A stretch of DNA of 64,000 nt, taken from Lytechinus variegatus. Lineage: Eukaryota; Echinodermata; Echinoidea; Temnopleuroida; Toxopneustidae. Both the position numbers and the translations under genes were made by a program. This document shows positions 25,471 through 61,760 of this stretch, piece by piece. The DNA lies in assembly GCF_018143015.1 (NCBI RefSeq), contig NC_054758.1, positions 6,745,001 to 6,809,000 on the forward strand, in the 5' to 3' direction. A model generated the notes under the pieces. It was not told the origin of the DNA, did no database searches, and saw only the letters and a list, made by a program, of their open reading frames with translations. The stretch's first letter is position 1, and each line of letters starts with the position of its first letter.

Positions 25471-26784
25471 TTACTTATTGGCATTGCCAATACTTTTATC
25501 CTCGTTTTTGGTACTTATTTTAAATCGCTTGATATCGAATTTCCATCTATTCAGTCCCAAGAACTGGCGAAAATTCCTCCTGAAATGGACGTTTGTTGCA
25601 GCGTAGATGAAAGGATTCAAGGTCGAGTTACACCAAAGTAAATTACTGACAGTTTCCCACACACGGTTAGACACACATTCAAAGCCACAAATAGAAAACA
25701 TGACGCTGGTGATGTTATATGGTAGGTAGCAGATAGTGAAACAACCGACAAGTATTGTAAGAACGAGCGCAGCTCTGCGATGCCTCACTAAAGTTTTGTT
25801 ATCCTTTTTATATGGCCAATTTTTATTTTCTGATTCAGGATTAGGATTCTGCTGCCGAGCTTGGGCAACACTGTGATCTTCTTTCCAGCAGTATTTGGAG
25901 CGTTTGGTTTCTAAAGCTGGATCCAATGAAGATTCAATTACTTCAAGCTGCTCCGTTGCACCTTCGGATGATGTGCTTCTGGGTCCGCTTTGTTGTCGGT
26001 CTTGTGTAGATTCGTGCTCCATTCTTGTATTCTGAAATCGCGTTGTCGAGGCGTCATACGACAGCATATCTGGGTTGATCCTATTTCCGACAAAACCTTT
26101 CGAGCGCCGTTTTATGTTAACAAACACACCTACGTAAACCACCACCAGTATGGCGAATGGTAAAATGAACTCCAAAAAGTTTACTACAATTGTAGCAGAT
26201 AGGTGTGTAAGAAACTCCATTTCACACTCTTCATCAAAGTTCACGTTGTGTTCCCCTGTTATGGAACTCCAAGTGAATGCCAATATGCTATATACAGTCA
26301 TCAATCCGATCCAAAGAGACACAACGGTGAAGGCCATTCTTTTATGACCACGGTTCCTAATGTATTTCGCCCCTTTGGTCAAGAGGCAGTAGCGGTCCCA
26401 ACTGATCAACAGCATAGTCATGATCGATACCATGCTTAGGGTATGCTCAATGATGCACCATAGTTTGCAGAAGACCTCTCCGAATGGCCAGTAGTCTAGG
26501 ATAACCCATGCCAAATTGACGCTCATTATGACTGCACCAATTAGAAAGTCCGAAATGGCCATATTCAGAATGTATATATTAGCAACGGTTATTCTTATTT
26601 TCGGATCGCGAAAATAAGCAAGTACCACGAAGAGATTCCCGATGACAGTAATTAAAGCAATTGTGGTCAAGATGAGAGGCACAGACCAAGTTGTTGAAAA
26701 TGGATATTCGTCCAGAGAACCGCTGGTCGTCGTATACTCATCAAAATCCGATGTATTAGACATATTTGCAGCCAGTATGATCAA
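25471..26784 (-). CDS. Histamine H3-like amine-type GPCR (E3.32/E5.46 form)
   Basis: 437 residues, single exon, full seven-helix receptor. The N-tail is acidic with sequons at N7 and N10. Landmarks: D79 (2.50), C106/C187, E113 (3.32), W-D130-R-Y, E205 (5.46), P209 (5.50), CY353LPY (6.47-6.51), ECL3 C366xxxC370, LLWCNSTLN390PFIY. Glu at 3.32 replaces the amine-binding Asp, Glu5.46 matches H3 receptors, and Tyr353 replaces the toggle Trp. ICL3 is about 110 residues, polar and Gln/Glu-rich. Met1 and Met8 are both possible starts. A TATA-like stretch (TTTATACAGTATAATAAG on the minus strand) lies about 75 bp upstream and is kept in the duplicate. The paralogue at 32695-33971 is nearly identical but frameshifted. 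An H3-like receptor by motif; ligand and coupling are inferred. Confidence 0.9.
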   Translation of the reverse strand: MIILAANMSNTSDFDEYTTTSGSLDEYPFSTTWSVPLILTTIALITVIGNLFVVLAYFRDPKIRITVANIYILNMAISDFLIGAVIMSVNLAWVILDYWPFGEVFCKLWCIIEHTLSMVSIMTMLLISWDRYCLLTKGAKYIRNRGHKRMAFTVVSLWIGLMTVYSILAFTWSSITGEHNVNFDEECEMEFLTHLSATIVVNFLEFILPFAILVVVYVGVFVNIKRRSKGFVGNRINPDMLSYDASTTRFQNTRMEHESTQDRQQSGPRSTSSEGATEQLEVIESSLDPALETKRSKYCWKEDHSVAQARQQNPNPESENKNWPYKKDNKTLVRHRRAALVLTILVGCFTICYLPYNITSVMFSICGFECVSNRVWETVSNLLWCNSTLNPFIYAATNVHFRRNFRQFLGLNRWKFDIKRFKISTKNEDKSIGNANK

Positions 26785-26847
26785 ACGGAATCGGTAGTAG
26801 ACAGATGATGTAGTACTTGAAGGAAAAGTCTGCGCGATCGTAATGCC

Positions 26848-26872
26848 CTTTTCTTATTATACTGTATAAATT
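26848..26872 (-). promoter_or_regulatory. TATA-like sequence upstream of the 25471 receptor
   Basis: The minus strand reads TTTATACAGTATAATAAG here. The same sequence stands at the same distance (about 34035-34059) before the duplicate gene. Conservation may only reflect the recent duplication. Confidence 0.25.
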
Positions 26873-28202
26873 ACAATCCTCTCATTCCGGTCTCCAGCAA
26901 GAATTTCCAAAGCAAAATGAAAATAAAGGAGTATTCTCTTAAAAGAAAGAAAAATGTTTTTTTTTTTTGCTTAAACAACTGAACAACACTTGCAGAATTC
27001 CAAGCAGGTTTATGATCCTCAGCGAATAAGAATCAACACCATTCTCTTTTCCTGTTGCATCAGCTCACTTTCTCTAACGCTGTTTACTTTTTTACCAGCT
27101 AATTAATTACATTCATCAAATTGAAGGAAGTCAATGACAACCATGACAAGGGCAAAAAAAAGGCATTGGGAGAGGCCAAAGCACTAATGTTAATTAAGAA
27201 GGCTTCTTTTGGCGTTCACGTAAATTATTGGAATACAATCATGATACCGTCTCGTGATAATCTACGAAAATGACATAAGTTACTCCAAATCACAGATTTA
27301 TATTCAATATGAGTGTTACCTAGGAAACTGAGATACTAGTTTCCACATCATCTACATCCTGCATGATGATGATCCCTATTTAGGGAACAGCCGACTGTCA
27401 GATCGAAGCGATACTGTTGACACTTGACTGAATTGTTTGTGGTACAATGATCAGTCTATCCTGCTGTATCCACTCCCGACCCATAAACCAACATGGACCT
27501 TCTGGAGAGAAAGGGGGAAGGAAGTGTTGTTATGATATAACTTTTAATTTGCTCAGTGAAATCGATATGCTGAGCGGAAAGAAAAACCCGAAGTCATTGT
27601 TTGTGATGTAATTGCGATGTACAAGGAGAATAGAATTGGGTTTCCATTTTCAAGAGAGTGTGCTTGTATAATATATTTCCTCGTTTCTTCTAATGTTAAA
27701 ATACAGGGTAACAAAACTAATATAATAAATGGTTGCGTTGGAAACAAAGTATTAGTAATGTTATAACTTGAATCATAACTTCAGGACTGGTTGTGGGGGA
27801 GGTACTGAAAGTGGTTTCTATGCTTTTAATTTAACGTTATGTTCAATAGCGCATTAAGTTACCATGTTAATTTGTTGGTTGTGGGTTTTCAAAAAGCACT
27901 CAGTTTAGCATGTAAAAGGTGGTAAGTTGACACACCTTACATATATCATAGAAAATAATCGCAGCCTCTTTTAAATAGGATGGCTTTGAACGAAGAATGA
28001 TTTGTTTTGTATTAATTTAAGTATACCTTTAGAAATGATATCCATAAGCTTTCATTATCAGTACTTCACTTAGCTATTACTGAAATACACGGGCGTAAAA
28101 GTCGGGGGATAGGGATGTATCCCCCTCTTTTCGGATAGTAGGGATGGCATGTAGAATCATCCCCCCCCACACACACTTTTCATGACAGAAACGATTTTCT
28201 TT

Positions 28203-28330
28203 ACCTATCAAATGATTTATTTATTTATCTATTTATTTATTAAACAATATTTCAATAGGGTGCCCTTTCAGCAGAAGCTGGTATCAAAAGGGGCCCTAAA
28301 AGCATAAAAAAACAATACATGTATATACAA
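28203..28330 (-). repeat. Possible 3' end of a non-LTR element with (AAAT)n tail
   Basis: The minus strand reads GGGCCCCTTTTGATACCAGC, then CTGCTGAAAGGGCACCCTATTG, and runs into AAATAAATAAATAGATAAAT. A unique 3' end passing into a tetranucleotide tail is typical of LINE or SINE 3' ends. No coding part is present. Confidence 0.35.
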
Positions 28331-28756
28331 GTGTTAAAACATGATTAATTTATGTTAGTACGCGGATTCATCTTTAAGACAATGACTGCAGTAAAAATGC
28401 TTGAATTCGCCTAATTTTGCAGTCTAATAACGCAAAATATCTCATGCGGTCGCTGAGCCCCCGCGTTCAACATGTTTAGTGTATTCTTACAAAATGTGGT
28501 CAAGGCAAATCCTTAGTTTTTGTTTTATTGCAAAGGTTTTATCCGTTATCATGAGAGCATGTTTGTAATACACCCATTTATGAATTGAATAATTCAAATT
28601 ACTTTTAATTAATTATATTAGTTACATTGTTTATCATAAACCAATAAAACGTTCTTTAAATACATTGATGGGGCATAATTATGCTGCCATCATTGTGGAA
28701 ACAGGATACCTTTAGTCACAATTTAAGCAACCATCTAATGGGTTATAAAATGCGGA

Positions 28757-28900
28757 GGTGCCGTGGCCGAGTGGTCTAAGGAGCCTATATACGTGAAAAG
28801 TCATGGGTTCGTTTCCCGGCCACGGGCACCTATGCCCATGAGGAAACCTTTTAAATGACTATTCTCCTTTATCCTGCATTCAAATGAATGGAAATGCTTT
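28757..28900 (+). repeat. tRNA-derived SINE-like head
   Basis: It contains a class II tRNA A box (TGGCCGAGTGGTCTAAGG) and a B box with one change (GGTTCGTTTCC), about 70 bp in all, but no variable arm and no normal anticodon arm. The ends GGTGCCGTGGCC and GGCCACGGGCACC pair more than a tRNA acceptor would. The downstream part (CACCTATGCCCATGAGG) looks like a SINE body. Not a working tRNA gene. Confidence 0.5.
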
Positions 28901-31331
28901 ACGCATTCTATGTAATTCGGTGTGCACTTTTTTTAAAAAAATATGGATTTTGCTCAAAATAGCCGGAAATGCTGCGTCTTCTCCAAAGATAATCTTAACT
29001 ATTATTACTTGTCCCTTTTTGCAATCTTTGAGATTGCATTTCCATCATTGTGCCAATCCCGCAATGTCCATAGTAGTGAATATTTGCGCCAATTCATTTT
29101 ATCAGGCACCGTGGTTTCCATAATCATGACCCATTTCTTTTTTAATTCTCAACTCACCTCTAACGAGTGAACGAATCTAGATTGTTTTCTTTTTTTATGC
29201 AACAGTTTTATTTTTTTCTTTTAACTTTTGTTATTGATACATTTCCTATACGACGTCCTCTATTGTTCACATTGTTTTAAACGACTAAAAAAGCTTTTTC
29301 GAGGCTCTCTCACGTTCACTTGCCTTATCCCATATTCCTTGAAATACGTTTTTCACGTCATTCTGCCTTCCAACTAAGTACAGAAAATTCGCTTCACTCT
29401 CTCCAGCATATAAATGGGCGGGGATTGGTACAATGATGGAAATGCAAACTCAAGGAAAAGATTGCTGAAGGGGGAGGGGGGGGGGGGATGATAATATCGA
29501 AGAACAGTGGTATTATGTTAGAAATGGGCCATCCTCCATATTTTATTTGACGATTTTTTTTTTCAATTTGATCTTGTATATGGAAATAAATACAAACAAG
29601 AAAACACAACCGTGAATTATGTCACAACAAAACCCTTCAAGTACCAGAACAAAATTGAAATAGGCTTGCTTGTCATCACGAAAAATATATATAACAGATA
29701 GCTCTTGATAATTGCACTTAAAAGGCGTTTCTAGACACTATTCTGTCTCTCAACGGAGTACTAAAAAATGGCCCTCTCGCATATTGACATAAACTCATAA
29801 AGGAGTTTATATCCTACATAAGCAATACAGCCGTCGAAAAAATAGTCCAAGAAAACTATAAGGTGTGACCTTAAAAAAGTTGCAACATATTTTTTTCACC
29901 GCAGTGCATTTCCATGAAGTCCCCAAAACGACATAATAAAAGTCAGGAAAAATCCAATTTGTGGAAAAAACGCCTAATTTGCATAAATCCAAAATGGCGG
30001 CCATTGGGTTTATTTTATCATAGCACTTTTAAAAATTATGATTTAACACTAATACTCCGGGGTATTTGGTATTTATTATTTCCGACGGGGAAGGGGAATA
30101 TGGTCCCTTTATCCTAGCCATAGGTCGCCCGATTGCCTCAAATTTTTGCTTAAGGGTCAAGAATTACGTAATCTACATATCTCCAACTGCGCCATCGGAT
30201 GAAACTTTACTCATGGAAATGGTTGGTCCCTTTGCCTGAATTTTTATTGTACTCGCTGTTTCTCATACCTGTTTGCCGCATTAATTTCCATTGCAGTAAA
30301 ATCCAAGCAATGTGCTAAGAGTAGCAACGATTTTTTTTTGCAATCAGAATTGTCATGTAGTTGCCCTTCATACGGGGCGCTGGCTTTTCAAAAATGCACG
30401 GTGTTCAAACATCTGCACACGAAATTCAGGACATGAAAATGGGCAGAAAGATTAAACTCATTTTTTGTAAAAGAAATATCCACCCCGGTAAAATCCCATT
30501 TTGCCTCTTTCGCTGTTGACTGCGAATGCAAACGACGATTCGGTTTTATTAGTGAATTATGTATTAAATTGGAACAGTTCGTGTAACATGAAAAAACATA
30601 ATGGCGATCTTTACATAATGTTTCATAGTGTGTAGCCTTTTTGATCGCAATAAAAAATCATTTGTGTAGGTATGAAGCAAAAGGAAGAGAAAATGATGTT
30701 AGAAATATAAGTTATTTCTGTTCAAAGTTTGATGTAAGTGACAGAGCTATACCATTTAATAGCTATGAATCTCAAGATTTTAATATTACCCAAGGCATAA
30801 CTACATGTAGTAGGGAATGAAGCAAATCTTATCCAACATCTATCTTTGGGAGATTGAGCTGACCATGTCCTATAAACTCTCTAGGGGGCAAATGGTTCTT
30901 AGGCACCTTTACCTGCTTTGCACCATTTTCCAGGATTTTTGGGACAGCATCTTTCACAGCGGTGTTGTAATTGCTGTTGTTACTAATTTATACCTGACAG
31001 GGAAAGAGCGGAAAATGACACGAAACAGTATTCCCACTTTGAAGCATGACCCAGTCTCTTATTAAAGTTGCTAGTTGATCCAATGCAGCCAATTAATTAA
31101 ATCAAAACGAATATCGAAGTGATACGAAGTTATATATGAATATATATAATATATATATATATATATATACATATAAATATATATATATATATGATTTCTA
31201 AATACATCAATTTGTGCTGGCATCAATTTTGAACAACCAGGGTATTTCATTTTGTTGTTGTCTTTTTTGTATTTCCTTTCTTTTAAAAACGGGGGCACAA
31301 GCCTGCTCCTCCGTGATTGATATCATAACAT

Positions 31332-31804
31332 GCAGGGCTCACAGGCCTAATTCATTTCCCATAGATTCGTGTGCTAAAGTGGCACTTAAAAAGAATTCAT
31401 AAAAATAAGGAGGAAATTCGAGGATTAAATGTTTACTACCGGTGGATAGGATAAATGTCTGACATTATATATCTGACCAGAAAAGGGTACCTCGACGGGC
31501 TCATTTTAAAATAAATCAGCATTTACGAGGACTACACCTGACGGGACCAATTTCATCACTTGAGAGAGTAAAATGACCCTAAATCTTCTGACAGTAAAAA
31601 TATAGTTCCATAGTCAGATAGTGGTGAAATATCTTTCTAACTTGGATATAGTAATTTCAGTAGGTACCCTCCCTAGAATCAGTGTTAGACTGTCAATCAT
31701 ATTCATTCATTTTTGACAATCAACAATATCAAATTTAAAATTGAGCAATAGGTTGGCTCGAATGAATATCTTTTGCCTGCCAGTTATAGGCCCGTGCTAC
31801 CTGC
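31332..31804. mobile_element. Non-autonomous DNA element, family TIR-480, with empty site in the other duplicate
   Basis: The ends are inverted (GGGCTCACAGGCCTAAT against GGTAGCACGGGCCTATA). Copy A at about 24288-24302 reads CATAACATGCATAAGCTGG; here CATAACATGCA is followed by the element and then TGCAAAAAAGCTGG, so TGCA is duplicated. Two younger copies lie at 40166-40648 and 41631-42096. Non-coding. Confidence 0.7.
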
Positions 31805-32224
31805 AAAAAAGCTGGATTGATTGGATCACTTTCTGAATCATCGCTGGGCATGGTGGGTATTGCAAGGCAAACATTCTCAAACTTGTCACTTAGTCCAGAA
31901 AGAGAAGTTACCCTGATTAACAATTGTTTCATGATTTTTTAAGAAAAGGGGTCTCACCAAATAAACGTGTTTTTTTGGAAAATAAAGTACAACGTATTCA
32001 TTATAGAGTTTACAACTTTTTCACCCTATCTATTGATTGAATACTATCATATTAATTTTGCTCAAAATATCAACGTATATACATCATTTAGACAACTTTC
32101 CATTTTTTGTGGTTTCTCTTCCAAAAGCAAAACAAAAGTTATAAGAACAGAAAAATAACAACGGCAATAATAAGGATCATGATCAAAATGATAATATTAA
32201 TAATAATAAACCAAAAGGAATTTT

Positions 32225-32460
32225 CATTCCGCCATCTATCTCAATCTATTCCGAGGCGCATTGCTTTTATTATTATCATTATTATTTCCCCTGCTTTTGC
32301 TCGAGGTGCCTTTCAGCGCTCGCGTGCATTCAAGGAATTAAACCTACCGTGTACTCATTCACCTCACCTGGGTCGAGTGCAACACAGTGTGCATTAATTT
32401 ATTGCCGAAGGAAAACTCGCCATGGCTAGGATTCGAACCCAAGACCTCTGATTAACTGAT
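32225..32460 (-). repeat. SINE-like repeat with tRNA B box
   Basis: The minus strand starts with a tRNA-like B box (GGGTTCGAATCCTAGCC), continues through the core shared with 2511-2680 (CACTCGACCCAGGTGAGGTG) and ends in a TAATAATAATAA-type tail near 32225. This is the usual order of a tRNA-derived SINE. It is missing from duplication copy A. Confidence 0.6.
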
Positions 32461-32694
32461 AGGAAAAAAAACGTTGATTTTACATTGACCTAAGTACAGA
32501 ACATGTCTCTTGCACGCGTAAGAAGTGGGCAAGTTCTCGGTGTTTTTGCTGATCAGTCGGACTGATGCGAGTCTTAAGATTTGAAAAACGAAATAAAAAA
32601 AGAAAAAGAGGCATTTCTTTCTCTCATTTTGAATCTCGAGTTACATAGCATTACTTATTGGCATTGCCAATACTCTTATCCTCGTTCTTGGTAA

Positions 32695-33971
32695 TTATTT
32701 GAATCGCTTGAAATCGAATTTCCATCTATTCAGTCCCAAGCATTGGCGAAAATTTCTCCTAAAATGTACGTTTATAGCAGCGTAAATAAAAGGATTCAAG
32801 GTGGAGTTACACCAAAGTAAATTACTGACAGTTTCCCACACACGGTCAGACACACATTCAAAGTCACAAATAGAAAACACGACACTGGTTATGTTATATG
32901 GTAGGTAGCAGATAGTGAAGCAACCGACAAGTACTGTAAGAACGAGCGCAGCTCTGCGATGCCTCACTAAAGTTTTGTTATCCTTCTTACTAGGCCAATT
33001 GTTATTTTCTGATTCAGTATTGGGATCCTGCTGAGCTTGGAACGCAGGATCGCAACACTGCGATCTTCTTTCCAGCAGCATTTGGAACTCTTGCTATCTA
33101 AAGCTGGATACAATGAAGATTCAATTACTTCAAGCTGCTCCGTTGCACCTTCGGATGATGTGCTTCTGGGTCCGCTTTGTTGTCGGTCTTGTGTAGATTC
33201 GTGCTCCATTCTTGTATTCTGAAATCGCGTTGTCGAGGCGTCATACGACAGCATATCTGGGTTGATCCTATTTCCGACAAAACCTTTCGAGCGCCGTTTT
33301 ATGTTAACAAACACACCTATGTAAACCACCACCAGTATGGCGAATGGTAAAATGAACCCCAACAAGTTTACTACAATTGTAGCAGATAGGTGTGTAAGAA
33401 ACTCCATTTCACATTCTTCATCATAGTTCACGTTGTGTTCCCCTGTTATGGAACTCCAAGTGAATGCCAATATGCTATATACAGTTATCAATCCGATCCA
33501 AAGAGACACAACGGTGAAGGCCATTCTTTTATGACCACGGTTCCTAATGTATTTCGCCCCTTTGGTCAAAAGGCAGTAGCGGTCCCAACTGATTAACAGC
33601 ATAGTCATGATCGATACCATGCTAAGGGTATGATCAATGATGCACCATAGTTTGCAGAAGACCTCTCCGAATGGCCAGTAGTCTAGGATAACCCATGCCA
33701 AATTGACGCTCATTATGACTGCACCAACTAGAAAGTCCGAAATTGCCATGTTCAGAATGTATATATTAGCGACGGTTACTGTTATTTTCGGATCGCGAAA
33801 ATAAGCAAGTACCACGAAGAGATTCCCGATGACAGTAATCAAAGCAATTGTGGTCAAGATGAGAGGCACAGACCAAGTTGTTGAAAATGGATATTCGTCC
33901 AGAGAACCGCTGGTCGTCGTATACTCATCAAAATCCGATGTATTAGACATATTTGCAGCCAGTATGATCAA
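32695..33971 (-). pseudogene. Histamine H3-like GPCR, frameshifted near-copy (D3.32/G5.46 form)
   Basis: A near-identical twin of the gene at 25471-26784. The first 334-codon frame (32967-33971) covers TM1 to TM5 and most of ICL3. In ICL3, near 33025-33050, it differs from its twin by a net 8-bp gain, which shifts the frame; TM6 and TM7 continue in another frame down to 32695. A second single-base loss near 32697-32702 shortens the C-tail (ends KRFK). Landmarks before the shift: D113 at 3.32 (the twin has E), W-D130-R-Y, G205 at 5.46 (the twin has E). The later frame has CYLPY and LLWCNSTLNPFIY. As read it would give a five-helix product. It may be a young pseudogene, a null allele or an assembly error; the otherwise clean frame suggests the break is recent. 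Confidence 0.8.
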
Positions 33972-35449
33972 ACGGAATCGGTAGTAGACAGATGATGTAG
34001 TACTTGAAGGAAAAGTCTGCGCGATCGTAATACCCTTGTCTTATTATACTGTATAAATTACAATCCTCTCATTCCGGTCACCAGCAAGAATTTCCAAAGC
34101 AAAATGAAAATACAGGAGTATTCTCTGAAAAGAAGGAAAATGTTCTTTTTTTTCTTTAACAACTGAACAACACTTGCAGAATTCCAAGCAGGTTTATGAA
34201 CCTCAGCGAAAAGAATCAACACCATTCTCTTTTCTTGTTGCATCAGCTCACTTTCTCTAGCGCTGTTTACTTTTTCACCAGCTAATTAATTACATTCATC
34301 AAATTGAAGGAAGTCAACTACAACCATGACAGGGCAAAAAAGGGCATTGGGAGAGGCCAAAGCACTAATGTTAATTAAAAAGGCTTCTTTTGGCGTTCAC
34401 GTAAAATTATTGGAATACAATCATGATACCGTCTCGTGATAATCTTAGAAAATGACATCAATTACTCCAAATCACAGATTTATATTCAATATGAGTGTTG
34501 CCCAGGAAACTGAGATACTAGTTTCCACATCATCTACATCGTGCATGATGATGATCCCTATTTAGGGAACAGGCTGTCAGATCGAAGCTATACTGTTGAC
34601 ACTTGACTCGAATGTTTGTGGTGCAATTATCAGTCTATTCCTATTGCCTAGCTGATTGGAGATCCTGCTGTATCCACTACCGACCCACAAACCAACATGG
34701 ACGTTTTGAAGTGAAAGGGGAAAGGAAGTGTTGTTATGATATAACTTTTAATTTGCTCAGTGAAATCGATATACTGAGCGGAAAGAAAACCCCGAAGTCA
34801 TTTTTTGTGATGTAATTGCAATGTACAAGGAGAATAGAATTGGGTTTCCATTTTCAAGAGAGTGTGTTGGTATAATATATTTCCCCTTTTCTTCTTATGT
34901 GAAAATACAGGGTAACAAAACTAATATCATAAATGGTTGTGTTGGAAACAAAATCTTGGTAAGGTTATAACTTAAATTATCACTTAAGGACTGTTTGAGG
35001 GGGAAGTACTGAAAGCGGTTTTGTATGCTTTTTATTGAACGTGATGCTCAATAGCGCATTATCCATGTGAATTTGTTGATTGTGGGTTTTCAAAAAGCAC
35101 TTATGTTAGCATGTAAAAAGGTGGTAAGTTGACGCACCTTACATAAATATCATATAAAAAATAACAATTGCAGCCTGTTTTTAGTAAGATGGCTTTAATC
35201 GAGCAAGGATTTTCTTTTGTGTTACTAAATCAAGTACATTTAGAAATGACATCCTTAAGCTATAATTATCAACACTTCACTTAATGATCACTGAACACGG
35301 GAGTAAACGAGGGGGAAGGGGATATGTCCTCTTTGAGATCTTGGCCATGGGTCGCTCGATAACCTACAAAGTTGCATAGCTAAATTTACAAATGTCGTTT
35401 TATTTGTTTATAAAAAACTTTTGCTAATTCATGCGAGAAATCACAGATT

Positions 35450-48462: not shown

Positions 48463-48495
<33 letters not shown>

Positions 48496-50689: not shown

Positions 50690-51979
50690 ATGGAAAACAC
50701 TTATCAAAACACCACCAGCTGTTGCGAAGATCAAGATTTGTATGATATAAGTGAACATCCCATGCATTCGATTGCGTGGCTAGCCACTGTCCCTTTGACT
50801 CTTTCGATAATAATCGCAGTCACTATAGTGGGGAACGCGATGGTGATTGCAGCTTACTTTCGGGACAAACGCATCAGGAATAATGTTGCGAACCTTCTCA
50901 TCTTAAACCTTGCAATAACAGACTTTGTCGTCGGTGCTTTCATCATTTCCATTGACACTGCCTGGATCATCAAGGACGTCTGGACCTATGGAGAGGTGTT
51001 CTGCAAAATCTGGCTAGACGTTGATTTCGTAGTCACCATGATGTCTTTGCTCACCATGGTACTAATCAGCTGGGACCGTTACTGTCTCCTGACGATGGGG
51101 ATGCGGTACAAAACATTCCAGACTAAAAAGCGTATTTGCGTGATTCTTACCATTTCTTGGACAGTTGTTACTCTGATATACACATTCCTTGCTTTCGGAT
51201 GGAGTCCCATTACCGGTGAATATAACGTAGATTATTCACAAAACTGTGAAATGGAGTTTACATACAACGTGGCTGCAACGCTCGTCATCAACATTTTCGA
51301 ATTCTTCATTCCGTTTACTATTTTAATTATCCTTAACATTGCTGTGTATAGTAACATAAAACGGAGATCTAATGGTACCGTCGGTCAAAGCCCTTCAATA
51401 CATGCGTCGGCTAGGTCACCAAAGAGAAGCTTTGGGCCTGGATCTCCAAAGAGGGTAAACTACCATCCTCCAGACGGTCCATCTGGCCCAGTAGCAGTCT
51501 CACCTAGACGCGGTGGTGATGCTGTTGAAGCAAATGCAACTAGCGAGTCTACTGACAACCGCGCAGATGGAGAAAACTCCCTCACAAGACAACTGTCAAA
51601 TGAAAGAGACTCTACTTCAAAGAAAGAAGGTCGAACATTCGCTAGGCATCGAAAAGCAGCATTCGTGTTAGCCATCCTTATCGGCTGTTTCTTGCTCTGT
51701 TGGTTACCCTACCAAGTAACAAGCGTAATGTATGCAGTCTGTGATACCGATTGCGTCTCCACTCGTTTGTGGGAGGTCACGAATTTACTTCTTTGGTGTA
51801 ACTCAACCATTAATCCCTTCATCTATGCTGCTACTAATGTCCACTTTCGTCGAAACTTTAGGAAGTTTTTGTTGCTTGATCGTTGGGCTTGTGACTTTAA
51901 AAATTGTAAATTGAAATGTCAAAATGCCAATCAGATTCAGGTTGCCACAGGAAGCCTTAATGACAGCACAGTTACCTAA
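50690..51979 (+). CDS. Histamine H3-like amine-type GPCR (canonical D3.32/E5.46)
   Basis: 429 residues, single exon. The N-tail has a sequon at N7 and a Cys pair (C11-C12). TM1 has G-N49 and TM2 LAITD78. C105/C186 form the conserved disulfide. D112 (3.32) and E204 (5.46) are the two acidic residues that bind histamine in vertebrate H3/H4. W-D129-R-Y; P208 (5.50); CW338LP (toggle Trp present); ECL3 C351xxxC355; W369 (7.43, as in H3); N375-P-F-I-Y. ICL3 is about 95 residues with several Ser-Pro sites. The tail has an amphipathic helix 8 and cysteines at 401, 406 and 410. Start chosen by the AAATGG context and by agreement among the three copies. AATAAA signals follow at 52124 and 52135. Of the six local genes this best fits a working histamine-type receptor; the ligand is still inferred. 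Confidence 0.92.
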   Translation: MENTYQNTTSCCEDQDLYDISEHPMHSIAWLATVPLTLSIIIAVTIVGNAMVIAAYFRDKRIRNNVANLLILNLAITDFVVGAFIISIDTAWIIKDVWTYGEVFCKIWLDVDFVVTMMSLLTMVLISWDRYCLLTMGMRYKTFQTKKRICVILTISWTVVTLIYTFLAFGWSPITGEYNVDYSQNCEMEFTYNVAATLVINIFEFFIPFTILIILNIAVYSNIKRRSNGTVGQSPSIHASARSPKRSFGPGSPKRVNYHPPDGPSGPVAVSPRRGGDAVEANATSESTDNRADGENSLTRQLSNERDSTSKKEGRTFARHRKAAFVLAILIGCFLLCWLPYQVTSVMYAVCDTDCVSTRLWEVTNLLLWCNSTINPFIYAATNVHFRRNFRKFLLLDRWACDFKNCKLKCQNANQIQVATGSLNDSTVT

Positions 51980-52123: not shown

Positions 52124-52140
52124 AATAAAACAAAAATAAA
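52124..52140 (+). promoter_or_regulatory. Possible poly(A) signals of receptor unit 1
   Basis: Two AATAAA hexamers about 145-160 bp after the stop codon. Confidence 0.4.
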
Positions 52141-52519
52141 TGAGTTGGTACCAATGGTTCTTATAACGTGTATTAAGGGACAGGTTAACCGTGATATGAC
52201 TTTGAAGAAAACGGTAGGAGCTGAAAGATCTTACTTATCAGCTGTGTATGTGATGTAATATAACAGTGAATCCCAAACAAGAAATCGTACCTGAGAACTG
52301 CTTCAGAAGGGTGAAATATGAATTTCTCTCTTTCTCTTGAAAAGAAAAAACATTTCAGAGGCGCCAGCTCCCCAATATTTCACACGTTATTCGAAAAGTT
52401 GCTCGAAAAGAAGGGTTTTTTTTAGATGTGAAGGTCTGAATGTTGTCACATGTCATCCCATACAATAAATATTCGTTGTATTGATTTCCTCAGGAGATTA
52501 AAGCTTGGTCCAATTGTAC

Positions 52520-53180
52520 TAACGGATGCAGAGAGGATGTAAAACAGAAAATAATCTTGCCATCAATTGGAAAATGTTATGTATCCGTTATGTACCCTTT
52601 GCTTATGTGTTTCATACGCTCTATATCCATCGAACATCCGTCCACTGTAATGTCATTGTTCGATCATTTTGCAGTTTTGTCCAGTGTCTAGAGCAGATAA
52701 AAACGGATGGAGCCACCTCGAACTTTTGCTTGTCCGCTGTATCCGTTATGAATGCGTTTTGTGTCCGTTGGCCAGTGGGACGAGACCTTTAAAGGCCTGT
52801 CCGGTCCCGCTGCACTTACGACGTACGACGTAAATCCGCAACACTACGAGAAACAAACGCCCCATCTCCGTTATCATCCGTTAAACGGAAGCGGAACAAC
52901 GGAAAGAGGGATGAAAGAAAGGTACATGGAACGTCTATATATTGCTAGTAGCGCGGAAATAGAGAGAATGTTAAAGCGTATGCATCTCGTATAAAGTATT
53001 CAAACCTCCCCTGTAATGCATTTGGAGGAGCCATCCACTTTCGTCACCTTTCATACGCTAGGCATTCGATAAACATCCCCGCTAAATTATACCAACGTCG
53101 GTATATTTTCCGTTATGTTTTCGACAATTCTTCGCTAATTTTGCCCATTTTTTGAGCGGAGGGAAACGGATGAAGCGTCC
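52520..53180. repeat. CCGTTATG/GGATG-rich complex repeat, copy 1
   Basis: Built of words such as ACGGATGCAGAGAGGATGTA, TGTATCCGTTATGTA and CATCGAACATCCGTCCACTG. A similar block at 56046-56900 stands at the same place in unit 2, so it was present before that duplication. Open frames in it are shadows. Confidence 0.6.
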
Positions 53181-53480: not shown

Positions 53481-53584
53481 GTATGTACATGCATATATGA
53501 TATTCCTACCACCCCCCATCCCTGTGCGAATGACGTATCTGAAGAACGAATTTAGAAATTAAAAATTGCTAATGGTTTTGTTTA

Positions 53585-54055
53585 ATATTTTACAGATGAA
53601 ACGACCCAGGTTCTATGGAAATGTTGAATATCTGTTATGAAAGTCTGCTTTGATTGACAGAGCCGATAATTGAGGAAATTTCAGGGTTTGTCAAATGGAA
53701 ACAAATTGACATGTTACCTTGTTTCAGAACAAATACGTATATAATCAGCCAGTCTTCATATGAAACTCTTTCGTCGATGTTTGAGAGTCAAGTGATACCT
53801 GAGCCATTACCACAATTTGGAGACCAAATTTCAAACCGGAATCGTCATAAGACAGAATACGTCATCGAGTGTATACTGACTTTGATATCGACTGAAACCC
53901 TGCAGATCGGCAGAACATTGAAAGCGTGCATGTCCTGGCCTGTCATAGTGTTCCATACCGGACAAAAACAAATAAGCTAGTGAGAACTAAAGGGATAAAG
54001 TAAGTCCAGTATCGATTATTTAATCTTAAATCCCTGATTTGATAGCTTAATCGAG
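53585..54055 (+). promoter_or_regulatory. Conserved upstream block of receptor unit 2
   Basis: Counterpart of 50226-50689. A 108-codon frame here is not maintained in the other units and reads the same non-coding block. Confidence 0.4.
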
Positions 54056-55366
54056 ATGGAAAACACGTGTGATATTCATCAAAACACCTCCAGCTGTTGC
54101 AAAGACCAAGATTTGTATGATATAAGTGAACATCCCATGCATTCGATTGCGTGGCTAGCCACTGTCCCTTTGACTCTTTCGATAATAATCGCAGTCACTA
54201 TAGTGGGGAACGCGATGGTGATTGCAGCTTACTTTCGGGACAAACGCATCAGGAATAATGTAGCGAACATCCTCATCCTAAACCTTGCAATAACAGACTT
54301 TGTCGTCGGTGCTTTCATCATTTCCATTAACACTGCCTGGATCATCAAGGACGTCTGGACCTATGGAGAAGTGTTCTGCAAAATCTGGATAGACGTTGAT
54401 TTCGTAGTCACCATGATGTCTACGCTCACCATGGTTCTTATCAGCTGGGACCGTTACTGTCTCCTGACGATGGGGATGCGGTACAAAACATTCCAGACTA
54501 AAAAGCGCATATGCGTGATCCTTGCCATTTCTTGGACAATTCATATTCTGATATACACATTCCTTGCTTTCGGATGGAGTCCTATAACCGGTGAATATAA
54601 CGTAGATTATTCACAAAACTGTGAAATGGAGTTCACATACAACGTGGCTGCAACGATCGTCATCAACATTTCCGGATTCTTCATTCCATTTGTTATCTTA
54701 ATTATACTTAACATTGCTGTGTACAGTAACATAAAACGGAGGTCTAGGGGTACCGTCGGTCAAAACCCTTCAAGTTCAATAAATACGTCGGCTAGGTCAC
54801 CAAAGAAAATCTTTGGACCTAGATCTCCAGGGAGGGTAAACTACCGCCATCCCGACGGTCCATCTGTACCAGTAGCAGTCTCACCTAGCCGCGGTGATAA
54901 TGGTGTTGCAGCAAAGGTAACCACCGAGTCTACTGACAATCGCGCTTGTTTTAGTGGAGAAAAACCCCTCACAAGAGAACTGTCAATTGAAAGAACCTCG
55001 ACTTCAAAGAAAGAAGGTCGAACATTCGCTAGGCATCGAAAAGCAGCATTCGTGTTAGCCATCCTTATCGGCTGTTTCTTGCTCTGTTGGTTACCCTACC
55101 AAGTAACAAGCGTAATGTATGCAGTCTGTGATACCGATTGCGTATCCACTCGTTTGTGGGAGGTCACGAATTTACTTCTTTGGTGTAACTCAACCATTAA
55201 TCCCTTTATCTATGCTGCTACTAATGTCCACTTTCGTCGGAACTTTAGGACGTTTTTGTTGCTTGATCGTTGGGCTTGTGACTTTAAAAATTGTGAATTG
55301 AAATGTCAAAATGCCAATCAGATTCAGGTTGCCACTGAAAGCCTTAATGGCAGCACGGTTACCTAA
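54056..55366 (+). CDS. Histamine H3-like amine-type GPCR (D3.32/G5.46 form)
   Basis: 436 residues, single exon, all seven helices present. Sequon at N10. D115 (3.32) and the W-D-R-Y motif are kept, P211 (5.50) and CW345LPY are kept, and TM7 reads LLWCNSTINPFIY. The H3-type acid at 5.46 is replaced by G207 (GGA where unit 1 has GAA), so the second amine contact is gone. ICL3 differs from unit 1 by several substitutions and a net four extra residues, while TM6 to TM7 is identical in protein and nearly so in DNA. Start by the same ATGGAAAACAC context as unit 1. An AATAAA lies at 55507. Probably functional as a fold; ligand preference likely shifted. Confidence 0.9.
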   Translation: MENTCDIHQNTSSCCKDQDLYDISEHPMHSIAWLATVPLTLSIIIAVTIVGNAMVIAAYFRDKRIRNNVANILILNLAITDFVVGAFIISINTAWIIKDVWTYGEVFCKIWIDVDFVVTMMSTLTMVLISWDRYCLLTMGMRYKTFQTKKRICVILAISWTIHILIYTFLAFGWSPITGEYNVDYSQNCEMEFTYNVAATIVINISGFFIPFVILIILNIAVYSNIKRRSRGTVGQNPSSSINTSARSPKKIFGPRSPGRVNYRHPDGPSVPVAVSPSRGDNGVAAKVTTESTDNRACFSGEKPLTRELSIERTSTSKKEGRTFARHRKAAFVLAILIGCFLLCWLPYQVTSVMYAVCDTDCVSTRLWEVTNLLLWCNSTINPFIYAATNVHFRRNFRTFLLLDRWACDFKNCELKCQNANQIQVATESLNGSTVT

Positions 55367-55506
55367 TATCTGCAAAACGGCCGTCTTCGATCTAGAGAGT
55401 TTCCTTGGAAACATGTCGGAAGCTAGGCCCAGACACAAAACTTTTGTCACTACAGTTATCAGACTACTGCACATCTTGCGCCTGTGACCCTATAAGGCAT
55501 GTGGTA

Positions 55507-55512
55507 AATAAA
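55507..55512 (+). promoter_or_regulatory. Possible poly(A) signal of receptor unit 2
   Basis: AATAAA about 140 bp after the stop codon, at the place corresponding to the signals in unit 1. Unit 3 has AATTAA there. Confidence 0.35.
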
Positions 55513-55654
55513 TATTTTAAAAATAATGCATTGGCACCAATGGTTCGTATAACGTGTATCAAGGCACAGGTTAACAGTGATATATGACTTTGAAAAAAAT
55601 GGTAGCAGCTGAAAGATCCCACTTATCACCTGTGATGTGTTATAATAATGAATG

Positions 55655-55779
55655 CAGTGGCGGACCGTGACCCCGAGGAGACAAAGCATTTTTTTTTTTG
55701 GGGGGGGCACGGCATTGTTCACAAACAAAATCAGTGTCCCCCCAATGCTTTGTCTCCTCCGGGTCACGGTCCGCTACTG
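55655..55779. mobile_element. Hairpin MITE (hAT-like) specific to unit 2
   Basis: Ends CAGTGGCGGACCGTGACCC and (reversed) CAGTAGCGGACCGTGACCC, pairing on through GAGGAGACAAAGCATT. AATGAATG flanks both sides, an 8-bp duplication typical of hAT elements. Unit 1 at about 52262-52275 and unit 3 at about 62335 lack it. Confidence 0.8.
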
Positions 55780-56045
55780 AATGAATGAATCCCAGACAAG
55801 AAATCGTACCTGAGAACTGCTTCAAAAGGGTGAAATTTAAATTGACCGCTATCTGTTGAAAAAAATCATTTCAGAGGTGTCAGCTCCCCGATATTTCACA
55901 CATTATTCCAAAAGTTGCTCGAAAAGAAGGGTCTTCATCATGTTCATTGCAGATGTGAAAGTCTCAATGTTGTCACATGTCATCCCATACAATAACATTC
56001 GCTGTATTGATTTCCTCAGGAGATCAAAGCTTGGTCCAACTCCAC

Positions 56046-56900
56046 TAACGGATGCAGAGAGGATGTAAAAAAGAATATAGTCTTGCCATCCATTGGAAAA
56101 CGTTATGTATCCGTTATGCACCCTTTGCTTATGTGTTTCATACGCTCTATATCCATCGACCATCCGTCCACTGTGATGTCATTGTTCGACCATTTTGCAG
56201 GGTTTTTTCCAACATCTAGAGCGGATAAAAACGGATGGAAGCACTGTGAAATTTTGCTTGTCCGCTGTATCCGTTATGTATACGTTTTGTGCCCATCGGC
56301 CAGTTACTTACGGATGCAAATCGGATGTAAAGCGTAAACAAATCTTGCCATCCATTGGAATACGCTATGTATCCGTTATGTACTTATTGTTTACGTGTTA
56401 CATGCGCTCTACCCATCGAGCATCCATCCACTGTGACTTCATCCGCATACAAAGTTTTGAGCTGGACAAAACTTTTAGAACGGATGAACTTTCGCCGTGT
56501 ACGACGTAACTCCGCAACATTCATGACATCACCAGAAACAAACGTCCCATCTCCGTTATCATCCGTTAAATGTCCGCTGTTTCCTCTCTGTATCTTCTTG
56601 GAATCCTTGAAGCTCATATTCGTTGCAGCGGAACAACGGAAAGAGGGAGTAAAGATAAGGTAAATGGAACGTCTTTATATCGTTAGTAGCGCCGAAATAG
56701 AGAGGATGTTAAAGCGTATGCATCTCGTATAAAGTATTCAAACCTCCCCGGTAACGCATTCGTAGGAGCCACCGACTTTCATCTCCTTTCATAACATCCT
56801 CGCTAAATTATACCAACGTCTGTTATTTTCCGTTATGTTTTCGGCAAATTTTCGCTTATATTGTCCATTTCTGGAGCGGATGGAAACGGATGAAGCCCCC
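56046..56900. repeat. CCGTTATG/GGATG-rich complex repeat, copy 2
   Basis: Counterpart of 52520-53180, here partly duplicated within itself: CTTGCCATCCATTGGAA and TATGTATCCGTTATG occur near 56083-56115 and again near 56343-56382. Confidence 0.6.
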
Positions 56901-57126
56901 CCCCCCCCTCCCCGAAAGTCTGCTCGTCCGCTTTGTCTTTTATAGATACGGTCTGCATTCATCGAAGAGTCCTTTAGTAAATAATGATTTTCAGTATATC
57001 CATGTAGATATCTTTAAAGTGTCTGCAGGTATACATGTATCAGTGCATGTATGCATTTTTTTCTCCTTTGTGTATGTTTTTTTGTCAATAAGAACAATAA
57101 CTAGATTTTAATTCGTCATGTGGACG

Positions 57127-58742
57127 AATTAGGTGGTCTGTCCTTATTCTTGCCATCATGATCATTATCACCATGTTCATGCAGGTCAATATGATCTTCA
57201 TGATGACTACGGAATGTTCATTATGGATGGAATACTTACGAAAGACGGAGATGATATAGCACTGTGAAAAAGGTCGGTTTAATATATGGCAATACATGTG
57301 ATATGAAAAAAAAGTAATTATAATCTGTTTTATCTTGCTAAATTTTAACTTTTATACCTTTGAATTGGCATAAAGGATCATGCACGAGGTGGTAAAAAGA
57401 AAAAAAAAATCATCTTGTTCGCCCCAGGACTCGAACCTGCGCCCCCGAGTACGCAAGTCAAGTGCGTTATCCATTCAGCCACGATATTCCCCATAGAGAT
57501 TACACTAAGAAAATTTGAGAATTACAAATCCAATTTTGCAAGCGAAAAACGGGCATGATCCCGGCATCTGATAAAAAATGAAGGCAACACTTCTGACTAA
57601 AAATCTCAGCTACAACATATAAAGAAAGCTCATGTATAACTCACAAGGAAAAAATGGAGATATAGCACACGAAATAAAGGAATGTAGAATCTAGTTTTGA
57701 GAAAAAGTCATGTCCCGTAGAGATAACACGCAAAATGAGGAAAAATGACATGCCTCTTTTCGTCGCTGTTTTACGCCATGATGCGTTTCTCAAAATGAAA
57801 ATTTATGTTAACTGTGGAGAAAGAGTACATTCTAAACTAAATTACAGTGAAATATGGGCGAAAAATGATCAATATTTACGGAGTTATAATAAAATTTGCA
57901 TATTTGATGACGTTATTTTTGAAAAAAATGACATTTTCAGCTATTTGATTTTCAGCCTTTTGATTACGTCATAATCAAATTGAGGGATAATGTTGACATG
58001 AAATGAAATCTACAACTTATCGATATATGAAAAAAAAATTGGGGATCAACCGACTATTTAAAGAGCTACAATGTACAGTGAATTTTCAATAGGCATGTTT
58101 TTGCCCATACATGGCCTATAGTGAGAACTCGCGCGCACACTGCTGCAAACTTTAACGGGTGTTAATTTCCTCATTAATGGTAGTAGGTTGATCAAGGTAT
58201 CAAATTGCTCAAAATTATATCATCAATGCTTTGATATAAAATATAACGGTTTTTCTGCGTTGCATTAAGGCGTTACGCGCGGAAATTAACGCGCGCGCAT
58301 ACGTGTGTGCGCGCAAATTTTTGAAATGCTTAAAATTACCTGAAACGTACTCTACTTTGGTCAAAAAGTGAACTGAGCATTTTAGAATTTTGACGCTCGC
58401 GTACGCGTGCGTCGTGACCTTCTGGTGACCTTTGTTGACATGAATCGTCCCTTCATCTGAAGTTGATGTGATGTTAATATTGTTAATTTTGGATAATTGA
58501 TAATGGAGATATGATTGATTATGTGATTTTACAAAATGGCGTCTAGATGACGTCATTATGGTCTGATGACCTTGAAAAGCTTATTTTGGCGTTTCCATGA
58601 CAGATGCTATTGATGACATGAAATTCAATAAACTTGACACTGTCAAATTCGAGATATCTTGGCGACAAACATGTTGCCATTAAAAAGAAAGAAAATTCTG
58701 ACGAAATTAAGAGGTGATCTGTCACAGACAGACCACCTAATA
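57127..58742. mobile_element. 1.6-kb inverted-repeat element with tRNA-like segment
   Basis: Left end TTAGGTGGTCTGTC pairs with right end GACAGACCACCTAA. The interior is AT-rich with a G+C patch of alternating CGCG near 58270-58320 and 58390-58415. No transposase frame; the longest frame (79 codons at 57735) has no recognisable domain. It includes the tRNA-like sequence at 57421-57495. Confidence 0.5.
57421..57495 (-). repeat. tRNA-Ser(UGA)-like sequence, probably SINE-derived or a pseudogene
   Basis: The minus strand has an A box (TGGCTGAATGG), a possible anticodon hairpin ACGCA-CTTGACT-TGCGT whose loop would place TGA at the anticodon, and a perfect B box (GGTTCGAGTCC). The T stem has four of five pairs. 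The acceptor ends do not pair, so this is unlikely to be a working tRNA gene. Confidence 0.45.
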
Positions 58743-59091
58743 AATTCAACATGAATTAATGTTCAGTATTATTTTTCCCAATATAACGTTTGTAATGTTA
58801 ACGTGCGCCTTTAATCAACAATAAAATGTCATATTGTACCCATGGGAGCCACTTCAGTTCAAAAAACTGTTCTCCCGGCGGGGCCTATTAACATGATTAC
58901 CCGGCAAAGATCGAAATTCCACTACTCAAACGTGGAAAATGAATGATCGCTCTCTGAAATTGATCCGCCATCAAGGTCCTCGAATATGGAATTCTTTGAA
59001 TGTCAATGTTACATCATGTAGCTACTTAAGTTGTTTTAAACGAAAATGTACGTCAAGCTTGCTATCTTATAGTCATTAATTTGTTTTCACA

Positions 59092-59424
59092 TGGGCGGAA
59101 TTCCCAGGAAGGACAGGGGACGTGTTGCCCTACCAAAAATAGTAGAGGGACACAATATCAAATGTTCCCCCTACTATTGATGGTCTGTTATGATGGAGAA
59201 AAATACATCATTCACAATCGAAATAATATATTTTGCTCTAAATTTACCTTACATTTTGGGTGAAAACTTTAGCTTTTTTTTCGGGGGGGGGGGGGTTGCT
59301 TGTAAATTTTATTAGGGTTAAAATGACCTTACATTTTGAGTACTACCCTTTTTTGCTTCTTCCTTTTTTTGGTCAAATTTTCCAGCCCTGGTCCCCTACC
59401 CTTTGGCACAGATTTCCGCCCATG
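59092..59424. mobile_element. TAGTAGGGACAC-type MITE, copy 2
   Basis: Ends CATGGGCGGAA (left) and TTCCGCCCATG (right) are inverted repeats. The interior is shared with 53165-53480. Confidence 0.65.
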
Positions 59425-59603
59425 TTCCTTCAATGCATATTTGATATTCTTAACCCCCCCCGCCCCGGTCCCTGTGTGATTGATTTTGTGATGTGAATTC
59501 ATTTTCTTATTTGTTATTATCAATCCCCGGGCGCCAAGCTAGAAAACGACCAGACCATTTGAATAAATGTTTGGAATGATTTAGTCAATTTGTTCTTTTA
59601 TTC

Positions 59604-59912
59604 ATGGGCGAAAAATCCCAGGGGGGGGCGACGTGTCCCTCTACCTAAAATAGTAGGGACACAATAGGCCTATCCCTTGTCCCCATACTATTTTCGGTCT
59701 TTTATGATGGACAGAATGAAATTGAAATAAAACATGTATTTTGGACGAGATAACCTTACTTGTTGGGTGATAACCTTTTTTTTTTCTTCGTTTTTTTTGC
59801 TTTCAAAAGTATTTTGGTCGAAATGACCTTACATTTGGGGTGATAACCTTTTTTTTTGCTTGTCAAACTTTCCAGCCCCTGGTCCCCCTACCTTTGGAGA
59901 CAGATTTCCGCC
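59604..59912. mobile_element. TAGTAGGGACAC-type MITE, copy 3, inside receptor unit 3
   Basis: Begins CATGGGCGAAAAATCCCAGG and ends GACAGATTTCCGCCC. Unit 1 shows uninterrupted sequence at the matching place (about 50095-50150), so it was inserted after unit 3 split off. Confidence 0.65.
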
Positions 59913-60004
59913 CTTGCTTTTATCATCAAGCATTTCCCGCCATCCGACATATCGCGTGCCTGAAGAACGAATTAAGAAATGTAAAAATTACTAATGGTAG
60001 TGTT

Positions 60005-60455
60005 TAATATTTCATAGATGCAACGAACCATTTTTGATGAAAATTTTGAATATCCATGAAGAAAGTCTGCTTTGATTGACAGTGCCGATAATTGAGGAAA
60101 TTTTACAGTTTGTCAAAAGGAAACAAATTGGTGGGTTCAGAACAAATACGTATAAGCAACCAGTCTTCTCTCTCGTCGATGTTTGATAGTTAAGTGACAC
60201 CTGAGCCATTACCACAATTTGGAGACCCACTTTCAAACCGGACTCGTCAAAAGACAGAATACGTCTACTGACTTCATGACTTTGATATCGACTGAAACCC
60301 TGCAGATCGACAGAACGTTGAAAGCGTGCATGTCCCGGCCTGGCATTCTGTTCAATACCGGACAAAAACAAATAAGCTATTGAGCTGTAACGGGATAAAG
60401 TAAATCCAGTATCGATTATTAAATCTTAAATCCCTGATTAGAAAGCTTAATCGAA
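60005..60455 (+). promoter_or_regulatory. Conserved upstream block of receptor unit 3
   Basis: Counterpart of 50226-50689, with a few small deletions near 60155-60175 and 60265-60275. Confidence 0.4.
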
Positions 60456-61760
60456 ATGGAAAACACGAGTGATATTCATCACAATACCTCGAGCTGTTGC
60501 GTAGATCAAGATTTGTATGATATAAGTGAACACTCCATAAGTTCGATTGCGTGGCTAGCCACTGTCCCTTTGACTCTTTCGATAATAATCGCAGTCACTG
60601 TACTGGGAAACGCGATGGTGATTGCAGCTTACTTTCGGGACAAACGCATCAGGAATAATGTAGCGAACCTCCTCATCTTAAACCTTGCAATAACAGACTT
60701 TGTCGTCGGTGCTTTCATCATTTCCATTGACACTGCGTGGATCATCAAAGACGTCTGGACCTATGGAGAAGTGTTCTGCAAAATCTGGCTAGACGTTGAT
60801 TTCGTAGTCACCATGATGTCTTTGCTCACCATGGTGCTAATCAGCTGGGACCGTTACTGTCTCCTGACGATGGGGATGCGGTACAAGACATTCCAGACGA
60901 AAAAGCGTATTTGCGTGATCCTTGCCATTTCTTGGACAACTGTAAGCCTGATATACACATTCCTTGCTTTCGCATGGAGTCCCATTACTGGTGAATTTAA
61001 CGTAGATTACTCTCAAAACTGTGAAATGGAATTTGTATACAACCTGGCCGCAACGATCGTCATCAACATTTGCGGATTCTTCATTTCATTTACTATCTTA
61101 ATTATCCTTATTATTGCTGTGTACAGTAACATAAAACGAAGGTCTAGGGGTACCGTCGGTCAAAGCCCTTCAAGTTCAATAAATACGTCGGCTAGGTCCC
61201 AAAATAAAAGCTTTGGGCCTAGATCTCCAAGGAGAGTAAACTACCGCCATCCCGACGGTCCTTCTGGCCAAGTCGCAGATTCACCTACCCGCGGTGGTGA
61301 TGCTGCTGCAGCAAATGTAACTACAGAGACTTCTGACAACCCTGCAGATGGAGAAAAACCCCTCACAAGAGAACTGTCAAATGAAAGAGCCTCTTCTTCA
61401 AAGAAAGAAGGTCGAACATTCGCCAGGCATCGAAAAGCAGCCTTCGTGTTAGCCATCCTTATCGGCTGTTTCCTGCTCTGTTGGTTACCTTACCAAGTAA
61501 CAAGCGTAATGTATGCAGTCTGTGATACCGATTGCGTCTCCACTCGTTTGTGGGAGGTCACGAATTTACTTCTTTGGTGTAACTCAACCATTAATCCCTT
61601 TATCTATGCTTCTACTAATGTCCACTTTCGTCGGAACTTTAGGAAGTTTCTGTTGCTTGATCGTTGGGCTTGTGACTTTAAAAATTGTAAGATAAAATGT
61701 CAAAATGCAAATGAGATTCAGGTTGCCACTGGAAGCCTTAATGGCAGCACGGTTACCTAA
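60456..61760 (+). CDS. Histamine H3-like amine-type GPCR (D3.32/G5.46, Pro5.50 lost)
   Basis: 434 residues, single exon, sequon at N10. Keeps D115 (3.32), W-D-R-Y, CW343LPY, the ECL3 C-x3-C pair and LLWCNSTINPFIY. TM5 reads NICG207FFIS211FTILIILI: the H3-type acid at 5.46 is Gly, as in unit 2, and the near-universal Pro5.50 is Ser (TCA where units 1 and 2 have CCG/CCA), with Asn to Ile a few residues on. The open frame is nevertheless intact with normal length. The TM6 to TM7 sequence is identical to units 1 and 2 apart from one residue. Same start context as the others. No AATAAA at the site used by units 1 and 2. It may be a receptor with altered activation or an early decaying copy. Confidence 0.88.
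   Translation: MENTSDIHHNTSSCCVDQDLYDISEHSISSIAWLATVPLTLSIIIAVTVLGNAMVIAAYFRDKRIRNNVANLLILNLAITDFVVGAFIISIDTAWIIKDVWTYGEVFCKIWLDVDFVVTMMSLLTMVLISWDRYCLLTMGMRYKTFQTKKRICVILAISWTTVSLIYTFLAFAWSPITGEFNVDYSQNCEMEFVYNLAATIVINICGFFISFTILIILIIAVYSNIKRRSRGTVGQSPSSSINTSARSQNKSFGPRSPRRVNYRHPDGPSGQVADSPTRGGDAAAANVTTETSDNPADGEKPLTRELSNERASSSKKEGRTFARHRKAAFVLAILIGCFLLCWLPYQVTSVMYAVCDTDCVSTRLWEVTNLLLWCNSTINPFIYASTNVHFRRNFRKFLLLDRWACDFKNCKIKCQNANEIQVATGSLNGSTVT

Follow-up and report, generated by a model that had tools for sequence, protein, structure and literature searches.

In the histamine H3 and H4 receptors, D3.32 and E5.46 grip histamine at its two ends, with E5.46 largely setting the pose of the ligand; the same account describes how alanine at E5.46 abolishes histamine-driven Gi activation of H3R, and how W6.48 is steadied by E5.46 in the active receptor (PMC11946611). 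These two contacts vary among six H3-like receptor copies in a 64,000-nucleotide stretch of the genome of the sea urchin Lytechinus variegatus (hereafter the window; C19:6745001-6809000 of an 869.6-Mb, 33-contig assembly). Judged from the sequences of these copies and of their relatives, the amine anchor at 3.32 has probably been kept while the second contact at 5.46 was repeatedly released and rebuilt by relaxed, perhaps diversifying, selection in a tandem-duplicating H3-like expansion, leaving D3.32/G5.46 copies that would have altered ligands or low activity; this is the reading we favor, without regarding it as secure.

The nearest described counterparts are the vertebrate H3 and H4 receptors, which provide the best match in sequence and fold, and the D3.32, E5.46, W7.43 and N5.58 of human H3R are all found in window gene 50690 (genes are named here by their start position within the window). 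Unlike these receptors, the urchin clade is many-copied and partly tandem, lacks E5.46 in 14 of its 18 members, has E3.32 in two of them, and includes a six-member subclade without P5.50. The trace amine-associated receptors (TAARs) of fish and mammals are likewise an expanded set of amine receptors gaining and losing acids in transmembrane helices (TM) 3 and 5, with Glu3.32 occurring in four rodent TAAR7s, two each from mouse and rat (PMC8546428, PMC4695389). In TAARs, however, the TM5 position used is 5.42, not 5.46, and D3.32 is gone from most teleost clade III members (PMC4695389, PMC8890504), whereas in the urchin clade 3.32 stays acidic and it is 5.46 that is lost; the comparison is by description, the tree used here covering urchin loci, human H3R and human M4. 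The sea-urchin surreal-GPCRs (G-protein-coupled receptors) are also an expansion of rhodopsin-type receptors in the urchin lineage (Raible et al. 2006 as cited in PMC5442662), but are described as a novel, independently expanded olfactory family, and are likewise compared by description only (PMC5442662). The pattern seen in the window is real and wider than the window; it is a naturally occurring variant of the H3/H4 type, and the TAARs provide a functional precedent.

Histamine acts on urchin larvae, and of three antagonists only the H3 antagonist thioperamide raised settlement without a cue, although the specificity of the antagonists in urchins was not known to the authors of that study (PMC3460732). 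The expansion described here could bear on why the H3 antagonist alone induced settlement. Of four urchin species, three are reported to have H3-like transcripts in their embryos (PMC12467107); among the open-access papers listed, none described an urchin H3-like receptor expansion.

Receptor copies in the window

Five of the six copies have an open frame and one, 32695, is frame-broken. The open copies (50690, 60456, 25471, 21057 and 54056) match PF00001 (7tm_1) above cut-off over profile positions 1-260 and, when checked for the DRY and NPxxY motifs, conform to class A (rhodopsin-like) GPCRs, while in 32695 the profile is covered at 1-185 of 260 only. The acid at 3.32 that marks aminergic receptors is present as D or E in all six, and 5.42, where an acid would mark a TAAR, is I or V in all six. 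Glu5.46, as in H3 and H4 receptors, is found in 21057, 25471 and 50690, and is absent from 54056, 60456 and 32695.

Re-reading of the codons bore out the residues given by a first-pass annotation of this DNA. Among the minus-strand genes, 21057 (21057..22394) has E3.32/E5.46 encoded by GAA at 22143-22145 and GAA at 21867-21869, and its frame begins at TM1 without an N-terminus, consistent with either a 5' exon or truncation; 25471 (25471..26784, first ATG at 26763) has the same pair encoded by GAG at 26446-26448 and GAG at 26170-26172; and the frame-broken twin of the latter, 32695 (32695..33971), has D3.32/G5.46 encoded by GAT at 33633-33635 and GGG at 33357-33359. On the plus strand, 50690 (50690..51979) has D3.32 (GAT, 51023-51025) and E5.46 (GAA, 51299-51301), the pair of H3R and of most of the outer relatives considered below. 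The two other plus-strand genes in the window are both D3.32/G5.46, namely 54056 (54056..55366; GAT 54398-54400, GGA 54674-54676) and 60456 (60456..61760; GAT 60798-60800, GGA 61074-61076), the latter with the additional changes P5.50S (TCA, 61086-61088) and N5.58I. A fourth plus-strand copy (L034, L046), also D3.32/G5.46, lies just beyond the window at C19:6821607-6822843, its frame broken near extracellular loop 2. Glutamate and glycine at 5.46 are related by GAG/GGG in the minus twins and GAA/GGA in the plus copies, and the separate origins of glycine in the two groups that had been proposed on this basis agree with the tree.

Among solved structures human H3R comes closest overall, and it is the best match by sequence for 50690 and 60456; alignments to the human H3R chain place the two contact residues of 25471 and 60456 onto its D3.32 and E5.46. 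For 25471 and 54056, AlphaFold2 gave models with a confident TM core (pLDDT, the predicted local distance difference test score, averages 73.5 and 71.3 over the whole chains, respectively), and a Foldseek run on the 54056 model returned human H3R (7f61) as its top match. In the tree, 27 urchin loci and human H3R are separated from human M4, L019 and L020 with support of 100/99.

Position 5.46 in the wider receptor family

Wider comparison drew on loci matched in the whole genome (rows, labeled L0xx). The residue table has 28 rows, these being the best 30 of 53 genome matches related to 50690, minus the two rows of the fourth plus copy; the tree, from which L060 and the more distant L010, L017, L021 and L023 were dropped, has 31. 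In the table 3.32 is D in 25 rows, E in two (21057 and 25471) and S in one (L060), and 5.46 is E in 12 and another residue in 16. The claim that D/E occurs only at 50690 holds within the window, but among related rows D/E is the commonest pair (9 of 28).

The window genes fall inside an 18-row clade (support 99/99), every row of which is acidic at 3.32; there is no chemical-class change at 3.32 among the tree rows, and W7.43 is unchanged among the rows of the change count (28 rows with H3R). At 5.46 the clade has E in four rows, Q in four, G in three, S and P in two each, and A, V and Y in one each. When minimum changes were counted over 186 TM positions, both as any change and by chemical class, 5.46 had at least 11 within the clade (nine by class), the most of all positions, whereas the nine outer relatives have E in seven and two changes only (137 and 92 of the 186 positions being as high or higher). 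Constraint at 5.46 therefore dropped in the clade of the window genes. L042 and L045 are counted here as two rows although they are possibly alleles, and counts were also made without L045.

Codon site models were also fitted. Three sets of 8, 6 and 16 rows (sets A, B and C) were analyzed with our own code, with branch lengths fixed after M0 and small negative values of 2dlnL (twice the difference in log likelihood) treated as optimizer noise; set B comprises the six rows without P5.50 and includes intracellular loop 3 (IL3) and tails, which are excluded from sets A and C, and the models did not include L040 or 32695. M0 omega (the ratio of replacement to silent rates) is 0.16-0.20 in the three sets, indicating overall purifying selection on the open genes. 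At 5.46 the site omega is 0.82 in set A (rank 4 of 286) and 0.49 in set C (rank 4 of 277), a rate suggestive of relaxed constraint and possibly of a degree of diversification. The corresponding values for 3.32 are 0.06 and 0.08; with an acid there in 27 of 28 rows as well, 3.32 is not a diversifying site.

Several results weigh against the favored reading. Gene 25471 scores about equally against an M4 chain and H3R. Over the 28 rows with H3R, 5.46 ranks 28th by any change and 3rd by class, and in set B it falls outside the top 14 of 350 sites by omega, with its neighbor 5.48 second. Because the window had prompted the question, 5.46 was recounted without the window rows: the number of the 186 positions that equal or exceed it, by any change and by class, respectively, is then 11 and 10 in the 12 remaining clade rows, 21 and 16 if L045 is also set aside, 27 and 13 in the ten non-window rows with open frames, and 33 and 11 across the 21 urchin rows outside the window. 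Without the window's own rows, 5.46 thus changes at a high but not unique rate (top 10-33 of 186, depending on set and measure). Nor is change focused on the binding pocket as a whole, as the first-pass annotation had it. For 22 pocket positions, fixed before the change counts but after the residue table was seen, mean changes are 7.5 versus 7.57 at other TM positions (p 0.99) and class changes 4.45 versus 3.87 (one-sided p 0.19); within the 18-row clade p is 0.40 for any change and 0.12 by class. Finally, H1R (Asn) and H2R (Thr) bind histamine without Glu5.46 (PMC11946611), so the D/G copies might still respond, in another pose.

What survives of the proposal that pocket change has diversified the ligands is the replacement hotspot at 5.46, a key histamine contact that is E in seven of nine outer relatives; ligand diversification by this route is plausible, if unproven. 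Urchin H3-like aminergic receptors would multiply by tandem duplication and exchange sequence between copies, and in the open copies 3.32 would still serve for amine binding. Two acids would remain available to a dicationic ligand such as histamine in 50690, 25471 and 21057 (D/E or E/E), but the H3-type histamine response would be lost in 54056 and 60456, which would instead respond to different amines, probably monocationic ones, or be weakly active. By what is known of H3 and H4 receptors, amine receptors that lose the second acid while the first position stays acidic are predicted to differ in the chemistry of their second contact, and a natural series that has an acidic anchor throughout and any of eight residues (E, G, Q, S, A, V, P, Y) at 5.46 offers a direct test of ligand change in amine receptors.

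Two sets of rows depart further from the H3R pattern. In the subclade of L042, L043, L044, L045, L047 and L048, P5.50 is replaced by V, L or S, W3.37 is present in five of the six rows and 5.46 (residue 202 in L044) is acidic in none, so that TM5 looks rebuilt. The distant relative L060 (C7:23891468-23892526) has S3.32, H3.49 and G7.43, yet E5.46, a second acid without the amine anchor.

Decay or positive selection as rival explanations, and a possible polymorphism

Regardless of its extent, rapid change at 5.46 could arise in other ways. Redundant copies may simply be decaying, with 5.46 drifting since histamine binding no longer matters in extra copies, and the broken frames of 32695 and the fourth plus copy, the loss of P5.50 and N5.58 in 60456, and a 5.46 site omega not above 1 are all consistent with such decay. 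It is nevertheless a possible rather than a likely explanation, as pairwise omega is 0.06-0.25 in TM1-3 of the plus copies, the M0 values are similarly low, and 3.32 stays acidic and W7.43 constant while 5.46 changes.

Positive selection for new amine ligands, a chemosensory diversification driving change at 5.46 and in TM4-5, has a precedent in the TAARs (PMC4695389). Replacement to silent changes among the twins, a pair of loci on contig C13 (L042/L045) and 50690/60456 number 28:16 in TM4-5 versus 10:22 in TM1-3 (p 0.010), and 12:2 versus 8:13 in the twins and C13 pair alone (p 0.007), although two other choices of plus pair give p 0.016 and 0.11 and the segments were picked after the counts were seen. 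Similarly, pooled recent groups, with the broken twin included, are variable at 14 of 80 pocket sites versus 54 of 614 other TM sites (one-sided p 0.016), but the single groups are not significant (p 0.10, 0.12, 0.13 and 0.64). These excesses are hints of more than relaxation. The codon test for positive selection that had been suggested alongside the diversification claim found no site class with omega above 1: M8 was no better than M7 or M8a in the three sets (2dlnL of 0.41, 0.21 and 1.12 for M8 versus M7), although simulated positive selection was mostly detected. With 5% of sites at omega 4, 2dlnL (M8-M8a) exceeded 15 in four of five control simulations and was 2.1 in the other, and none of four null simulations rose above 1.3; a single selected site is beyond detection of these models, and gene conversion disturbs such tests. 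Positive selection as the driver is accordingly doubtful.

The replacement-rich TM5 of the C13 pair also bears on this explanation. L042 (C13:21326627) and L045 (C13:15011500), H3-like loci 6.32 Mb apart, differ at 5.46 (A/V), 5.48 and 5.49, with five replacement changes in four TM5 codons and no silent one, and their pN/pS (replacement to silent divergence per site) of 0.60 compares with 0.06-0.22 in four other possibly allelic GPCR pairs; the proteins of a fifth such pair, L017/L018, are identical. Bindin (PF02084), whose presence marks the genome as a sea urchin's, has a pair on C13 that is 95-98% identical in alignment, and this pair and three 7tm_1 pairs, the latter matched on similar scores and unaligned, have offsets of 6.29-6.35 Mb on the contig. 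On other contigs, DNA identity is mostly 95-99% for five GPCR pairs (one flank of L005/L006 drops to 81%). From the like offsets and these near-identical pairs, L042 and L045 may be two haplotypes, and A/V at 5.46 possibly polymorphic; since their 93.4% identity over 3.7 kb is lower than that of other pairs, true duplication is also possible. For several genes, bindin among them, haplotype copies seem to have been retained in the assembly.

Glutamate-bearing genes, probable exchange between copies and neighboring features

Genes 21057 and 25471 have E3.32, Y6.48, N6.52 and S7.39 in common, yet fall apart in the tree, and a topology holding them together is rejected weakly (approximately unbiased test, p 0.038, for a group named post hoc after the tree). 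Both convergence and an old shared state are compatible with these data. Position 7.39 lies near 3.32 in aminergic pockets, and with E5.46 steadying W6.48 in H3R, coupled change is plausible. Gene conversion between the two genes in TM6-7 was looked for and not seen: their identity without the trait sites is 53.8%, equal to that of 21057 to the plus copies and below its identity to L049. Substitution of D3.32 by E has differing effects in TAARs, as sTAAR365 keeps its efficacy for cadaverine and putrescine at much lower potency and mTAAR9 activity is abolished (PMC8546428). A more far-reaching proposal, and a distinctly improbable one, is that urchins possess a TAAR-like, H3-derived set of receptors for sensing amines, with 5.46 acting as a specificity switch that is under selection and still segregating; within this set, 21057 and 25471 would independently have reached a coupled bis-glutamate pocket (E3.32, Y6.48, N6.52, S7.39), perhaps for small di- or polyamines.

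The contrast between the minus twins, which differ at both contacts, had been the most striking among the copies. The residues are indeed E/E and D/G, but the comparison is weakened because only one of the two, 25471, is an open receptor, the other having a broken frame. Relative to 25471, 11 bp are inserted and 3 bp deleted in the IL3 of 32695, and one base pair is missing from its C-terminal tail; the reading frame is lost in IL3 near 33034-33056 and the gene's own frame stops in that loop (334 amino acids), so that TM6-7 are out of frame. As 32695 would make no full receptor, the pocket differences cannot be read as those of two working receptors with different ligands. The twins lie in a duplicated unit, copy 1 at 25354..28114 and copy 2 at 32532..35320, 91.3% identical in self-match. 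Silent divergence between the twins is 0.05 in the 5' part (10 silent and 15 replacement changes, 305 codons) versus 0.25 in the 3' part (13 and 7, 97 codons; p 0.0003 with rounded site numbers), which suggests that the 5' part was probably homogenized by gene conversion; in that case the conversion would predate both pocket changes. That the twins are instead two haplotypes misplaced in tandem, in an assembly that appears to retain haplotype copies elsewhere, is very hard to credit: in self-matches of at least 300 bp the repeated high-identity units are limited to 2.8 kb (minus) and 2.1 kb (plus), and are accompanied by a 466-bp piece at 80% (23738-24193 versus 30667-31118) and a 523-bp piece at 87% (52267-52776 versus 55786-56304), which is not the pattern expected of tandem haplotypes; the 2.2 kb of spacer examined, 28200-30400, matches at full length only itself; and the twins differ by multi-base indels.

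Among the four plus copies, 55 sites are split 2:2, supporting the three pairings at 21, 19 and 15 sites, and neighboring sites share a pattern in 28 of 54 cases versus 17.7 expected by shuffling (p 0.003). Judged by these sites, the plus copies appear to be mosaics produced by sequence exchange. G5.46 is found in three of the four, including the broken copy, and, given the mosaicism, one or more E-to-G events may have occurred within the group; the E5.46 of 50690 could have been either kept or regained.

Elsewhere in the window, minus-strand frames at 15156-18112 include a reverse transcriptase match (RVT_1), a match to an integrase-like tyrosine recombinase below cut-off, and a zinc-knuckle-like motif identified by eye; we take these frames to be, perhaps, a retroelement of the DIRS/Ngaro type.

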